DNA of 15,196 nucleotides from Paraclostridium ghonii (GTDB lineage: Bacteria > Bacillota > Clostridia > Peptostreptococcales > Peptostreptococcaceae), in assembly GCF_023653455.1 (NCBI RefSeq), contig NZ_JAKEDR010000075.1, forward strand, positions 1 to 15,196. The letters are read 5' to 3'. Below are positions 1,309 to 15,196 of the stretch, in pieces. Every line of letters begins with the position of its first letter. The stretch's first letter is position 1. Both the position numbers and the translations under genes were made by a program. The notes beneath the pieces were generated by a model that was not told the DNA's origin, did not search any database, and saw nothing but the letters and a program-made list of their open reading frames with translations.

Positions 1309-2352
1309 TTATAAATCTATTGTTTTATATCCAGCTGACTTCATTAATCTATTCATTATAGCTCTACCTACTCCTTGATTTGAAAAAGCCTCAGAATATA
1401 TAATATCTATTTCCTTTTTATCCATTTCTATTAAAGAGTTAAAAAGGTTGCTTCCAACTTCATCTAAATTATTTCCAAGACCTATTACTTCACCTTTATA
1501 ATTTCCTTTGTTTTTGTTTAGACAAATAACTCCGCATTTTAACCCTTTTTCTTCATTCTCTTCTATTAGAGAATTTATCTTCTCTATTACTTTATAATCT
1601 TCACCTCTTACTATATAAACATCTCCATTTGGAGAATAGTGAGTATATTTCATCCCTGGAGCTTTAGCTTTTTTTGCATCTGCTTTACCTTCAATCGATG
1701 GGTCTATAAGAATTTCTCCAATTATCTCTTCCATTTGCTCTTTTGTTACGCTTCCCGGTCTTAATATCATAGGCTTTTCAGATGTCATATCTATAACTGT
1801 AGATTCTAATCCAAAGTCGCAATCTCCTCCAACTATAATTCCATATACTCTTCCACTCATTTCATCGCATACATGCTCCCCTTTAGTTGGAGATGGTCTT
1901 CCCGATATATTTGCTGACGGAGCTGCTATAGGAACCCCTGATTGTCTTATAATTTCTCTGGCAACAGGGTTAGAAGGCATTCTTATTGCAACTGTGTTTA
2001 ATCCTCCGCTAGTTCTTTGTGGAACTATTTCTTTCTTTTTAAATATCATAGTAAGTGGGCCAGGCCAAAATTCATTCATTAATTTTTTAGCTTTTTCATT
2101 TATGTCTGTTGCTAATGTGTTGACTTCATCTTTTTCACATATATGTACAATTAAAGGGTTATCACTTGGTCTTCCTTTTGCTTCATAGATTTTTTTTACA
2201 GCATCTTCATCTAAAGCATTTGCGCCTAAACCATAAACTGTTTCTGTAGGAAAAATAACGGTCTTTCCTTCTGATAAAAAGCTTGCATGCTTTTTTATCT
2301 CTTCCTTGTCTATATTCGCTTCATCAATTTTACTTATTTTTGTATTTATCAT
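1309..2352 (-). CDS. sua5: Sua5/YwlC/YrdC-type threonylcarbamoyl-AMP synthase
   Basis: The enzyme makes L-threonylcarbamoyladenylate from threonine, bicarbonate and ATP, the first step of the t6A modification at position 37 of ANN-decoding tRNAs; TsaD with TsaB/TsaE does the transfer. The start chosen gives 347 aa, the long (Sua5) form. The YrdC domain (about 1-205) shows FPTETVYGLG (34-43), KGRPSDNPL (59-67) and SAN (146-148). The linker APGMKYTHYSP (231-241) leads to the C-terminal Sua5 domain. The open frame extends six codons further upstream to an ATG at 2370, but only the ATG at 2352 has a ribosome site (GGAAGG, 7 bases ahead). It starts 25 bp after the ZIP gene stop, so the two are probably cotranscribed. 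Confidence 0.94.
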   Translation of the reverse strand: MINTKISKIDEANIDKEEIKKHASFLSEGKTVIFPTETVYGLGANALDEDAVKKIYEAKGRPSDNPLIVHICEKDEVNTLATDINEKAKKLMNEFWPGPLTMIFKKKEIVPQRTSGGLNTVAIRMPSNPVAREIIRQSGVPIAAPSANISGRPSPTKGEHVCDEMSGRVYGIIVGGDCDFGLESTVIDMTSEKPMILRPGSVTKEQMEEIIGEILIDPSIEGKADAKKAKAPGMKYTHYSPNGDVYIVRGEDYKVIEKINSLIEENEEKGLKCGVICLNKNKGNYKGEVIGLGNNLDEVGSNLFNSLIEMDKKEIDIIYSEAFSNQGVGRAIMNRLMKSAGYKTIDL

Positions 2353-2377
2353 TAGTATACCTTCCTTCATATTTAGT

Positions 2378-10787: not shown

Positions 10788-12704
10788 TTAATTTATTAAT
10801 AGCTTTTCTAATTCGCTTACCAATGAGTTAAACTTCTCTGTTGTTTGCTCTATAGGTTTAGTGCTATAAAGATTTATTCCACTTTCTTTTAATAACTCTA
10901 TAGGATAGTTAGACCCGCCTTTTTTAAGAAAAGATAAATAATTTTCAGGTCCATTTTTAATTATATCTTGAGAAAATGCTATACCTGTACTACATCCTGT
11001 AGCATACTTATATACATAAAAACTGTTGTAAAAATGAGGTATTTTTGACCACCCTACTTTAGATAGTTGGTCTACTTCAAAATCTTTCCCATAATATTTT
11101 TGTAAAAGTTCTCCCCATACATCATTTAATACTAATACATTTACAACTTCTCCACTTTCAAGTTTTTGATGTACTTTATCTTCAAATTCAGCATACATTG
11201 TTTGTACAAATAATGTATTTTTTATCAAATCTAAATATTGAGTTATATAATAAGCTTTTTCATCATTGTTTTGTGTGTTTTTTATTAACATTTCATATAA
11301 TAAAGCTTCGTTAGTTATAGATGCAACTTCATGAGTAAATATACTTGGTTTAGAATTTAAATAATTTTGATTCTTAGAACTTATATAACCATATACTGCA
11401 TGACCTAATTCATGAGATAATGTAGATACCGAATCTAAATTTCCACTATAGTTCATTAAAACATATGGATGATTATCATATACTGATAGGCAATAAGCTC
11501 CACTGACTTTATTTTCATCTGAATATACATCTACCCATCTCTCATTAAAAGCCTTATAAAGTATATCTCCGTATTCTTTTCCTAAAGGATTTAGTGCCGA
11601 ATATACAATATTTTGAGCTTTACCATATGGAATATGCTCATCTACCGGATTAATAATAGGAGCATGCATATCGTATGAATAAACTTTATCTAAATTTAGT
11701 ACTTTTTTTCTTAAAGCTATATATTTATGCAAACTTCCTAAATTATTATCTACTGTATTTACTAGTTCATCATAGACCTTAGGATCTATATCATCACCTG
11801 ACATGTACATTTCTCTTGAATTTTTATACCCTCTAGCATTTGAATAAAATATATTTTTCTTAACTTGTCCTATAAATAAACCTGATAACATATTTATGTT
11901 ATTGTTATATTTTAGAGATTCATTCTCATAAGCTTTTTTTCTAGTCTCTCTATTTGTACTTTCTACTGCTAATGAATACTCTGAAGGATTTAAGCTTGAT
12001 TTTTTATCCATATTCAAAAACAATTCATATATGTCTTTAGGTAAAGATGATATATCACTTATATTACTTAACAGTTCTTCTTCTTTAGGATTAAGATAAT
12101 GCTTTTTATTTCTTCTTATATCACTCAAATACATACTATATTTGTTTGATATCTTTTCATCTTTCATAATCTCTTTAAAATCTTTGTTAGATAATTTTAA
12201 AATTTCTAATTCTAAATCAGAACATATAGAACTGTATTCTTTATATACTTTGTTTAAGTCTTCATTCATATTTAAATATTTATATGAGTTTTTATTAACG
12301 TCACTATTTAAAGATACATAAGCATATAATTTTTCTAGTTTTGAGTCCAAATCTTCTTTTATATTTAGAGCATATAGTAAATGTTTTTGAGACTTAGTTA
12401 CTTTACCTACATAATTTTCTAACTCTTTAGTTTGTTCTTTAAATTTATCTAAATTTTGTTTCCAATATTCATCACTCTTATACAATTTAGTTATATCCCA
12501 AGTAGTGTATTTAGTAGCTTTTTTTGATTCTTCTTTAGAATTTTCTTCCTTAGAAGAATCTTTTTTACTAGTATCATTTATAGTTTGAAGTGTATTTTCA
12601 TTTAAAGCTTCTCTATGTCCACTTATATCTTTCTGTAATAAAATAGATGCAAATAATATAACAACAATTACAATAGTTATTAACTTATACATATTTTTCC
12701 CCAT
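10788..12704 (-). CDS. pepF: Membrane-anchored oligoendopeptidase F homologue (M3B)
   Basis: The product is 638 aa and is a zinc metallopeptidase of the M3 family, which cuts short peptides. The HELGH motif (431-435) supplies two zinc histidines and the catalytic E432; E459 in THEVASITNE is the expected third ligand. The substrate-binding PHFYNSFYVYKYATG is at 556-570. Unlike ordinary cytosolic PepF (about 600 aa), it begins with a basic stretch and a hydrophobic helix (7-23, LITIVIVVILFASILL), then a Ser/Lys/Glu-rich linker to about residue 65. There is no cysteine for a lipobox, so a signal anchor or cleaved signal peptide is likely, placing the enzyme outside the membrane. The start at 12704 has AAAGGA 9 bases ahead, within a hairpin; the ATG four codons later is a weaker alternative. 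No convincing SigA promoter is seen. Confidence 0.9.
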   Translation of the reverse strand: MGKNMYKLITIVIVVILFASILLQKDISGHREALNENTLQTINDTSKKDSSKEENSKEESKKATKYTTWDITKLYKSDEYWKQNLDKFKEQTKELENYVGKVTKSQKHLLYALNIKEDLDSKLEKLYAYVSLNSDVNKNSYKYLNMNEDLNKVYKEYSSICSDLELEILKLSNKDFKEIMKDEKISNKYSMYLSDIRRNKKHYLNPKEEELLSNISDISSLPKDIYELFLNMDKKSSLNPSEYSLAVESTNRETRKKAYENESLKYNNNINMLSGLFIGQVKKNIFYSNARGYKNSREMYMSGDDIDPKVYDELVNTVDNNLGSLHKYIALRKKVLNLDKVYSYDMHAPIINPVDEHIPYGKAQNIVYSALNPLGKEYGDILYKAFNERWVDVYSDENKVSGAYCLSVYDNHPYVLMNYSGNLDSVSTLSHELGHAVYGYISSKNQNYLNSKPSIFTHEVASITNEALLYEMLIKNTQNNDEKAYYITQYLDLIKNTLFVQTMYAEFEDKVHQKLESGEVVNVLVLNDVWGELLQKYYGKDFEVDQLSKVGWSKIPHFYNSFYVYKYATGCSTGIAFSQDIIKNGPENYLSFLKKGGSNYPIELLKESGINLYSTKPIEQTTEKFNSLVSELEKLLIN

Positions 12705-12751
12705 AAAAAGCCATCCTTTCTCTAAGATTATTAGTATTAGGATGGCTTTTT
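12705..12751 (-). promoter_or_regulatory. Hairpin covering the pepF ribosome-binding site
   Basis: A perfect 13-bp inverted repeat (12705-12717 and 12739-12751, AAAAAGCCATCCT and its complement) has a 21-nt loop. The loop itself can form a 4-bp CTAA/TTAG stem. In the minus-strand RNA the 3' arm contains the AAAGGA ribosome site, and its U5 ends exactly at the pepF ATG. It could hide the ribosome site, or act as a terminator of read-through from spoIIE. On the plus strand it is also terminator-like, but no plus-strand gene leads into it. Confidence 0.75.
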
Positions 12752-12778
12752 GTATCTATATTATTCAGTTTTTGGAAA

Positions 12779-12797
12779 ATAAGTATCGTTTACTTAT
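12779..12797. repeat. Inverted repeat overlapping the first DnaA box
   Basis: ATAAGTA (12779-12785) and TACTTAT (12791-12797) form a perfect 7-bp inverted repeat around a 5-base centre. Its right arm overlaps the DnaA box at 12794-12802 by four bases. It lies 75-93 bp ahead of the pepF start and could be an operator. Confidence 0.45.
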
Positions 12798-13012
12798 CCA
12801 CATATTTATCAACATATCAACACTTTTAAAATGTTAAATTTCCAATATTTATTATGCATATTTTTTCATATTTATATATTATATTTACATATTATCCACA
12901 TATTATAAATACTTATTAACATTTTTTTTATTTTCATGTTGATATTACTCTATTTTCATAAATTTATTTTATATTTTAAAATTTTTAATTTTTCTTAATT
13001 TTTCACATATTT

Positions 13013-13019
13013 TGTCGAA
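13013..13019 (+). promoter_or_regulatory. Consensus Spo0A box
   Basis: TGTCGAA is an exact match to the Spo0A binding core. It sits inside the DnaA-box cluster, about 310 bp upstream of the pepF start and 100 bp after the end of spoIIE. It is a single site, so it is suggestive only. Confidence 0.45.
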
Positions 13020-13120
13020 TATTGTAATTCCAATGTGTACATAAATAAATAACCATTTTATATGTCCACATTTTATCCACATTTAATTAACATTTTGTGT
13101 ATAACTTGTGGATTTTAAAA

Positions 13121-15196
13121 TTAATCCTTAAATACTTTGCTTACAAGAACCGTCATATCATCATGTATATTATTATTTTGTATGTCTAATGCTCTATTTA
13201 AAATTTCATTTGTTATTTCTTTTGGATTAGTTGTTTCTAATCCTTTTAAAAAGTATATCAACCAATTGTCGCCTAGGTTTTTATTCTTACCAGCATCTAC
13301 AATCCCATCTGAAACCATAATTATATAGTCCCCATCTTTTATTTTCCTACTATCTCTTTCTATATTTATATCCGCCAGTATACCTACAGGCAATGAAGCG
13401 CTAGATATAAGATCTATATCACCATTGCTTCTTTTTATATATGTTGAGCATGCACCCATTTTTATTGTATTTAATACCCCCTTATTTAAATCAATAATAC
13501 CTAAATCTAATGTTGAGAACATCTCGTCAGATGATTTAAGCATTAATATATTATTTATAGTGTCAATTATTATTTCTTCATCTATATTCGAGTCCATCAT
13601 ATTTTCTAATATATCTATGGTTATAGACGATTCTTCGTAAGCCTTTCTTCCTTTTCCCATCCCATCACTTATAGCTATCATATATTTTCCATCAGATACT
13701 TCCATATAAGTATAGTTATCCCCTGAAATTAAATACCCATCTTTAGACATATTAGAAACCTCTGTTGCAACTTTAAATTCTTGTCTTTTTGTTAGTTTTA
13801 TTTTGCATTGACCTCCTGTGCATATACATCCTACTTTTCTAGCAACTAATTCTTGACCTAATACATTTGATATAATATTAGTTATCTTACTTTCACACAA
13901 TTTATTATCACTACAAGTTTCTCTTTCTATTAAAACTTCAAAATCATTGCTATCTGTAGATATGTAATTTAATTTTTTTATACTTATATTATTTCTGTCT
14001 AGTTCAACAAGTAAATTTTTTTCCATTTCCATATCAAATATTATATCTTTATCTAATTCTTTTGCCATGCATTCAATAGAGTTGGACATATATCTTATTT
14101 GATTAGCTACTAACTTTCTATTTTCCGAAAATCTTTGCTCCCAACTGTAGTCTAATGCAAACATTTTATAATAATAATTCGATGCCTTAACAATACTCTC
14201 AGGCTTTATACAATCTTTCTTAAAATCAATAGGTATATTTTCTAAATAAACTTCTCCACTATCCTCTAGTTCTTCTAGTATTCTATTCATCATTGTATAT
14301 GTGTAATTAAATTTTGAGTCCCAACATCTCCTTCTCATTCCACAATTTTTACATTCATCATTATGTATCATATCTATTATATGTGCTATATCTTTTTGAT
14401 CTAAAATCTTTTCTTTTTCTCTTATCCTATCAAAAGTATTCGCTAAATCTGAATATGTTTTATACATACCTCTTAATCTGTTATTAGTTATTTCCCTACT
14501 CCTAGCTAAATAATCTTCTACTCCATCTTTTAATCCACCGTTTCCCTTTATAATTTTCTCTATATTTTTTATTACCTTATCCGGTATAAGTATTACCAAC
14601 ACACTAGCTATTAGTATATCTCTAACTTCCATAATGTTTGAACCTATCCCAGAGGTATAAATGTAAATTAAACTCCAACCCACTACATATCCTGCTACAC
14701 TTAAATATTTATTAACTTTATTAAATCCACCACAAATCAATCCTGCAAATGCATAAATTCCCATATACATACTAGACACTAAATTATTTATAAAATAAAC
14801 CAATCCAATTATAACTCCACTAGATGCTCCTAAAGCTGAACCACCTGTAATAGATAATATTAATATAGTCATAGTTGTTAAAACATTTCTAATCGATATG
14901 CCAAGTACAGAAACTCCCCCTATTCCCATTATGCTAAATATTATGATAATTGTTAAAGCTACAATTTCTTCATTAGAGGTGACTGTTCTAGAAGCCCTTT
15001 TATTTATAACTGCAACTCCATAAGAAAATATATAAGTCCCAACAAACATAAGTATACACTCAACTAAAGCTATGCTTAAATTATATACGTAGCTTCCAAA
15101 TATTAAAGCTTGTCCCATAGCTATAGGAATCATTACCAAGGTTCCTATAATAGATATTTTATTTATTGATTTTATATTTTTTATATAACTAGATAT
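13121..15196 (-). CDS. spoIIE: Stage II sporulation protein E (partial, 5' end off the window)
   Basis: SpoIIE is a membrane PP2C-type phosphatase that dephosphorylates SpoIIAA to release sigma-F in the forespore, and it also helps the polar septum form. The frame is open through the right edge, giving 691 codons without the true start; the first in-window TTG (15139) is not a start, since residues upstream continue the membrane domain. Visible parts, numbered from that TTG: membrane helices to about 187, a cytoplasmic regulatory region with CKNCGMRRRC (263-272) and CICTGGQC (438-445), then the phosphatase domain with SGDN (472-475), SDGMGKG (491-497), SDG (610-612) and HDDMTV (659-664), which hold the metal-binding aspartates. 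Full-length homologues are about 800-830 aa, so roughly 100-140 residues are missing. Its promoter is outside the window. Confidence 0.96.
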   Translation of the reverse strand: MSSYIKNIKSINKISIIGTLVMIPIAMGQALIFGSYVYNLSIALVECILMFVGTYIFSYGVAVINKRASRTVTSNEEIVALTIIIIFSIMGIGGVSVLGISIRNVLTTMTILILSITGGSALGASSGVIIGLVYFINNLVSSMYMGIYAFAGLICGGFNKVNKYLSVAGYVVGWSLIYIYTSGIGSNIMEVRDILIASVLVILIPDKVIKNIEKIIKGNGGLKDGVEDYLARSREITNNRLRGMYKTYSDLANTFDRIREKEKILDQKDIAHIIDMIHNDECKNCGMRRRCWDSKFNYTYTMMNRILEELEDSGEVYLENIPIDFKKDCIKPESIVKASNYYYKMFALDYSWEQRFSENRKLVANQIRYMSNSIECMAKELDKDIIFDMEMEKNLLVELDRNNISIKKLNYISTDSNDFEVLIERETCSDNKLCESKITNIISNVLGQELVARKVGCICTGGQCKIKLTKRQEFKVATEVSNMSKDGYLISGDNYTYMEVSDGKYMIAISDGMGKGRKAYEESSITIDILENMMDSNIDEEIIIDTINNILMLKSSDEMFSTLDLGIIDLNKGVLNTIKMGACSTYIKRSNGDIDLISSASLPVGILADINIERDSRKIKDGDYIIMVSDGIVDAGKNKNLGDNWLIYFLKGLETTNPKEITNEILNRALDIQNNNIHDDMTVLVSKVFKD

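Follow-up and report, generated by a model that had tools for sequence, protein, structure and literature searches.

In Bacillus subtilis, DnaA-box clusters (DBCs), that of ywlB-ywlC in particular, pack several consensus boxes into some 300 bp of non-coding sequence outside the replication origin oriC. According to the available part of PMC5295017, cells without the six DBCs initiate replication early, and restoring a single DBC partly relieves this. The titration model thus comes from a species in which DnaA clusters regulate genes too (PMC4447404, available part). In Escherichia coli, datA, DARS1 and DARS2 are non-coding, DnaA-controlling loci outside oriC as well, and the accessible text of PMC5010248 reports that their relative distance to oriC is conserved among E. 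coli. Here we describe a locus from the Peptostreptococcaceae, the spacer between spoIIE and a pepF-like gene of Paraclostridium ghonii, which is probably an extra-oriC DnaA-box cluster of the B. subtilis DBC kind that limits free DnaA.

The window (the whole stretch of DNA analysed, 15,196 nucleotides) carries this cluster at 12705..13120 (no strand assigned), where it takes up the entire non-coding spacer of 416 bp between the spoIIE stop codon (13121-13123) and the start codon of the pepF-like gene (12702-12704), both genes being on the minus strand among the open reading frames of the window; the reading frames, the box statistics and the conservation in the family define the element. The original prediction had placed four exact DnaA boxes, several near-match relatives and an A/T core in this spacer. 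A motif scan of the window found all four exact TTATNCACA sites, namely three copies of TTATCCACA on the plus strand (box 1, 12794..12802; box 3, 12892..12900; box 5, 13073..13081) and one TTATACACA in the opposite orientation on the minus strand (box 6, 13096..13104), each with 8/9 columns identical across five species of the genus. The relatives fared unevenly. Two plus-strand sites with one mismatch, box 2 (TTATCAACA, 12806..12814, 12 bp from box 1) and box 4 (TTATTAACA, 12913..12921, 21 bp from box 3), are identical at 9/9 columns, which puts conservation at 8/9 or 9/9 columns for all six boxes. The near matches at 12852, 12999 and 13036 (0-2/9 columns identical in the same five species) look like chance; among the spacer's five one-mismatch sites, conservation within the genus is thus limited to two. 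Near-match columns as a whole are identical at 53/81 positions versus 89/207 for the rest of the cluster, and boxes 1 and 3 have a mismatch in L004 and L005, two of the five species. The AT-rich core amid the boxes (12900..13003, no strand assigned) was borne out, with 91% A+T per 100 bp, and the AT-richest 100 bp of the whole window begins at 12900-12904.

The exact boxes of the window are widely spaced, and one near box takes part in each close pair (12 and 21 bp). Across the family, 131 of 142 exact boxes have the same orientation relative to spoIIE, and the distances between same-strand neighbours (n = 77) include 11 bp (18 cases), 12 bp (10), 9 bp (5), 21 bp (4) and 22 bp (3), with 33/77 at 9, 11 or 12 bp. 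Eight near-identical Clostridioides loci supply 32/142 boxes and 16/18 of the 11-bp distances, which makes the cross-genus support for 11 bp alone thin; several genera contribute to the distances of 9, 12 and 21-22 bp. This orientation and the close, near-helical spacing would fit cooperative DnaA binding.

On the pepF side, beside the start codon, we observe a hairpin (AAAAAGCCATCCT...AGGATGGCTTTTT, 12705..12751, minus strand) that is likely a terminator of spoIIE transcripts and a neighbour of the DnaA array that lies outside it. A 67-base piece folds at -19.6 kcal/mol and the hairpin arms are conserved in alignments; no terminator came out of a simple scan for loops of at most 8. A putative SigmaG-like promoter of pepF occupies 12738..12766 on the minus strand (GAATA at 12762-12766, 17 bp, CATCCTA at 12738-12744), as judged by the sigmaG consensus; it was read directly from sequence in L001-L003, and most family loci that have pepF show the -35/-10 motif. 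The sigmaG-like -10 of pepF thus lies in the 5' arm of the terminator-like hairpin (window 12702-12766, minus strand), and the likely ribosome-binding site of pepF falls in the 3' arm; a spoIIE transcript would carry the whole hairpin, and a transcript from the sigmaG promoter would lack the 5' arm. The available part of PMC3789822 lists C. difficile CD3489, a putative oligoendopeptidase F, among the genes of the sigmaG regulon.

A SpoIIE search of 71 family genomes gave matches in 58, of which 54 are true SpoIIE by score, and 53 spacers were read, the one in G050 being cut by a contig end. The genera include Paraclostridium (g1), Asaccharospora (g3), Clostridioides difficile (g4), Faecalimicrobium (g5), Metaclostridioides (g9), Romboutsia (g14, g18 and g20) and Terrisporobacter (g23). 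In the 480 bp that follow spoIIE, 50 of the 53 loci have one exact TTATNCACA or more, 42 have at least two and 35 at least three. Loss of the boxes in relatives that keep the spacer had been named as a finding that would speak against the cluster; relatives that keep the spacer mostly keep the boxes too. By these counts, the spacer is a conserved element of the Peptostreptococcaceae, and the observation of a cluster between spoIIE and pepF is confirmed. Three loci, all from small genomes (G018, G019 and G025), are without any exact box, and eight more have a single one, indicating that the element can be lost.

Outside the family, at least two exact boxes within 500 bp after spoIIE occur in 0/61 named loci and, within the same order, in 0/20 loci chosen from 45 outside-family genomes with SpoIIE; these controls are weak, the 61 being for the most part kin of Paenibacillus or Bacillus, and many loci in either set being GC-richer. 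Single exact boxes appear in one of the 61 (L110) and in one of the 20 (L173). L186, also from outside the family, has two exact boxes, but these lie 616 and 1128 bp after spoIIE.

The boxes do not depend on either flanking gene. The gene after spoIIE is not pepF in g2, g21 and one genome of g22 (G061; loci L054-L058), where two to three exact boxes remain, and the main frames that come next in L055, L057 and L058 are on the other strand from spoIIE. In genus g10 the search finds no SpoIIE, and both spoIIE and pepF are gone from this place: the gene order is rho, galU, boxes, ppx (ppx was seen in G031 and G032, and the G033 contig ends there), compared with rho, galU, pepF, boxes, spoIIE, ppx in the spore-former G011. 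All three g10 genomes hold two exact boxes each, together with 7, 7 and 10 near boxes; among 1000 shuffles for each genome, the exact count was reached by 0, 9 and 11 and the near count by 0, 1 and 0. Since g10 keeps the boxes without spoIIE and pepF, the element is independent of those genes. Spo0A is absent in G032; in G031 and G033, which are without SpoIIE, we observe a weak Spo0A C-terminal domain in frames of 160-166 aa (G031:C1:981409-981717 and G033:C15:42881-43189), perhaps a remnant or a reused DNA-binding domain.

Altogether 17 of the 71 genomes are without full SpoIIE by score; 16 of them were searched with Rho (G030, 75% complete, was omitted), and 15 Rho-anchored upstream regions were read (G037 was omitted, its rho lying at a contig edge). 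In genus g13, with SpoIIE in 0/9 and Spo0A in 0/9 genomes, no cluster follows galU in any of the eight genomes read at this site, G044 having one lone exact box there, and galU and ppx nearly touch in the five genomes with both anchors found. The four genomes of g8, g11 and g12 have no box pair at the Rho-anchored site.

With respect to density, the spacer (12705-13120) holds four exact boxes and nine sites with at most one mismatch, compared with means of 0.083 and 1.49 in dinucleotide-preserving shuffles, and neither count was reached in any shuffle (0/2000), in agreement with the earlier expectation that so many boxes would be rare by chance in such DNA. Near matches in the whole window show no clear enrichment (33 versus 27.08 expected), nor is the motif enriched in the whole P. 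ghonii genome (208 TTATNCACA versus 228 of a reversed control pattern); with neither window nor genome enriched, the excess of boxes is local. Ranking within this genome used all 70 TTATCCACA sites (100 of the 208 TTATNCACA were listed), and three within 330 bp occur solely here and at oriC (contig C361). Per 330 bp, the spacer has 4 exact and 9 near boxes, a density comparable with that of the genome's own oriC halves (5 and 14, and 3 and 7). A complete ranking of TTATMCACA (M = A or C, with G and T variants outside it) comes from the single-contig genome G011 only: among all 156 sites, four per 330 bp are found at just two non-oriC places, the spoIIE cluster and a purA-dnaB site 22 kb from oriC, and 0/5000 trials of random placement give four in 330 bp. 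The high box density that, if widespread in intergenic regions, was to count against the cluster is thus confined to very few places in this genome. With one genome per genus, 44 exact boxes fall in 17 spacers versus 1.27 expected. The AT-richness of the DNA and the lack of genome-wide enrichment would be in keeping with chance matches, but the shuffles leave this explanation with practically no credence, as do the 17 genera whose spoIIE spacer could be read, 16 of which have one exact box or more, and we regard a chance origin as refuted by conservation.

The boxes around a 91% AT core would also suit a secondary or ancestral replication origin, the alternative raised in the original prediction. 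The GC skew, however, shows no sign change at the locus, having the same sign on both sides in 5/5 sequences, and a DnaA-trio, sought with one regular expression, is absent from the spacer and present in the genome's own dnaA-dnaN region, which is the sole positive control (a G011 slice, which probably ended short, gave no trio). Contig C361, moreover, has a bipartite oriC-like region in which boxes flank dnaA on either side. As far as skew sign and trio can say, the locus is not an origin; both disfavour this idea, which we hold to be very improbable. A phage origin was likewise rejected, with no match among 50,697 phage records. DnaA could instead act here as a transcription factor, the boxes controlling a neighbouring promoter (that of pepF or of a spacer transcript) as at ywlC and sda. 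The cluster lies upstream of pepF, sigma-70-like hexamers occur in the spacer, and B. subtilis DnaA represses ywlC and activates sda (PMC4447404, in the part available). Yet the downstream gene varies in the family while the boxes stay, and they also stay in g10, where both neighbours are gone; these changes of neighbour make gene regulation less likely. Promoter-like sites show no excess (7 versus 7.7 in shuffles), no Rfam family reaches the cut-off, and pepF, which the available part of PMC3789822 places in the C. difficile forespore sigmaG regulon, is an unlikely DnaA target, so that we consider a regulatory role unlikely. A non-coding RNA in the spacer was rejected, the one Rfam match scoring 21.6 bits versus a cut-off of 49.

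A site that alters the nucleotide state of DnaA, by hydrolysis like datA or by exchange like DARS, would differ from plain titration. The close, mostly co-oriented boxes in a non-coding spacer and the similar distance to oriC in two genomes are compatible with such a site, and C. difficile, which according to the available part of PMC7561715 has no homologue of YabA, Rok or Hda, could make use of another DnaA control. The box architecture, on the other hand, differs between genera, which argues against it. Features specific to datA and DARS are IHF or Fis sites and a fixed box trio. Dependence on IHF or Fis, ATP hydrolysis and nucleotide exchange are features of the E. coli loci, whereas the present cluster is known from its sequence, and we judge a datA- or DARS-like activity improbable.

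The reading that we prefer, a cluster that limits free DnaA, is closest to the B. subtilis extra-oriC clusters, a likeness that the original prediction had drawn and that density, conservation and the non-oriC location support. In P. ghonii the dnaA region lies on contig C361 and the cluster on C348; the distance to dnaA is 177 kb in G027 (contig of 3.30 Mb) and 189 kb in G011 (3.93 Mb, a contig taken as closed). We infer that DnaA would bind the consensus boxes as a cooperative complex, and that the cluster would thereby hold DnaA away from oriC and lower free DnaA by titration. Lying about 5% of the chromosome from oriC, it would be copied soon after initiation and so delay re-initiation. 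The cluster thus probably helps to time DNA replication; by analogy with B. subtilis, it should hold DnaA and damp re-initiation.

The likeness to the DBCs is one of sequence, from which alone the present cluster is known, and the gene context differs: the B. subtilis cluster lies upstream of ywlC (PMC4447404, available part), whereas the one described here follows spoIIE, about 10.4 kb from a ywlC-like gene. This ywlC (Sua5)-like gene (window 1309-2370, named by eye) belongs to the same gene block, and the window scan finds no exact DnaA box near it. The block itself presumably matches the B. subtilis ywlC block (upp, rpiB, ywlC, prfA, prmC, tdk, rho, glpX, fsa). Among the titles and abstract starts listed from openly licensed literature, none mentions the cluster, which is weak evidence of its absence from print.

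Other box groups are present in family genomes, so the cluster may be redundant, as in B. subtilis. A second conserved TTATCCACA pair with 54-bp spacing lies past the 3' end of an nrdG-like gene (G000:C142:298-360 in L034; also L079 and L086) and is possibly another DnaA-box cluster; this position was seen in the three genomes read, the spaced pattern occurs in 20/71 family genomes, and 15 of these 20 share the same first letters after the first box. Abutting boxes, TTATCCACATTATCCACA, are found upstream of an hpf-like gene (G000:C309:24776-24793 in L033; also L080) in the two genomes read, the 18-mer being present in 18/71 family genomes and its hpf-like position seen in two. In G011, five exact DnaA boxes lie between purA- and dnaB-like genes (L078, 4767-5087), two of them within a small frame, and G027 has one exact box at the same place.

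The array in P. ghonii also contains a predicted Spo0A-box element (13010..13035, plus strand), made up of TTTTGTCGAA (13010-13019) with the core TGTCGAA (13013-13019), followed by a TTGNAATTNCAA-like palindrome. The exact core occurs only once in the 15-kb window. A motif, TTGNAAttNCAANNTTCGACAaa, is common to eight genera (g1, g5, g14 and g16-g20), starts about 75-125 bp after spoIIE and on the other strand contains TTTTGTCGAA, whose ten letters are all present in 13/19 loci. The core is found in 18/19 loci of these eight genera, in 0/34 loci of the other nine genera and in 0/3 of g10, and the exact core was not found in the oriC regions of P. ghonii, G011 and G027. The TTGNAATTNCAA palindrome beside it (window 13024-13035) is conserved in the same eight genera. 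TGTCGAA is the published 0A box core; in the available part of PMC3485338, the C. difficile Spo0A DNA-binding domain binds several fragments carrying it, and the C. difficile 630 genome has 102 perfect cores, about one in 40 kb. At this frequency, a position-conserved core would be unlikely to arise by chance. Clostridioides and eight other genera do without the core, which therefore does not belong to the basic function.

In a midpoint-rooted SpoIIE tree of 30 rows (30/53 loci, lacking g2, g6, g7, g17 and g21-g23), the Spo0A-box genus label needs one change (support 94/91); as the tree is labelled by genus, L027 is scored as positive for the box despite having no exact core. Of the genera not in the tree, only g17 has the core, so that a single gain is the simplest reading. 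One-mismatch versions of TTTTGTCGAA occur elsewhere in the spacer in L022, L027, L029 and L040, as well as in L023, whose genus is outside the clade, and by eye there is no convincing second 0A box 10 bp away that would make a tandem Spo0A dimer. G026, a Paraclostridium genome in 370 contigs, has the core and no Spo0A match, perhaps owing to an assembly gap. A conserved, predicted Spo0A box within an extra-oriC array is new, and no such box within the array is described for the B. subtilis DBCs in the available parts of the cited papers.

These observations change the proposed link between spoIIE, sporulation and the boxes: as a link through spoIIE it is weak, the boxes persisting without spoIIE and pepF in g10, and what stands is the conserved Spo0A box of one clade. 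The Spo0A boxes of B. subtilis oriC likewise lie within DnaA-box DNA and are tied to chromosome copy number at sporulation (PMC5295017, available part), but they partly overlap the oriC DnaA boxes, whereas the predicted box here lies between DnaA boxes and outside oriC. With the box inside the array, Spo0A~P, if it binds there as we infer, may change the DnaA complex as cells of the Paraclostridium-Romboutsia branch enter sporulation. Only tentatively do we extend this to a two-input switch in that branch, in which Spo0A~P on the 0A box would alter the amount of DnaA held and thereby fix the chromosome number at entry into sporulation. Acting from about 5% of the chromosome off oriC, such a switch might, just as tentatively, replace SirA, which is above the Pfam cut-off in 0/71 family genomes, genus g2 alone giving two weak matches beneath it.

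For the biology of the family, the cluster is an element kept from Paraclostridium to Clostridioides difficile, and also where spoIIE has gone. No YabA, Rok or Hda is reported for C. difficile in the available part of PMC7561715, and SirA is not above the cut-off in the family; for the restraint of DnaA in clostridia, the 416-bp spacer provides a defined target for testing titration. The Spo0A box is confined to one branch, and a coupling of replication to sporulation would thus be testable by comparing branches.
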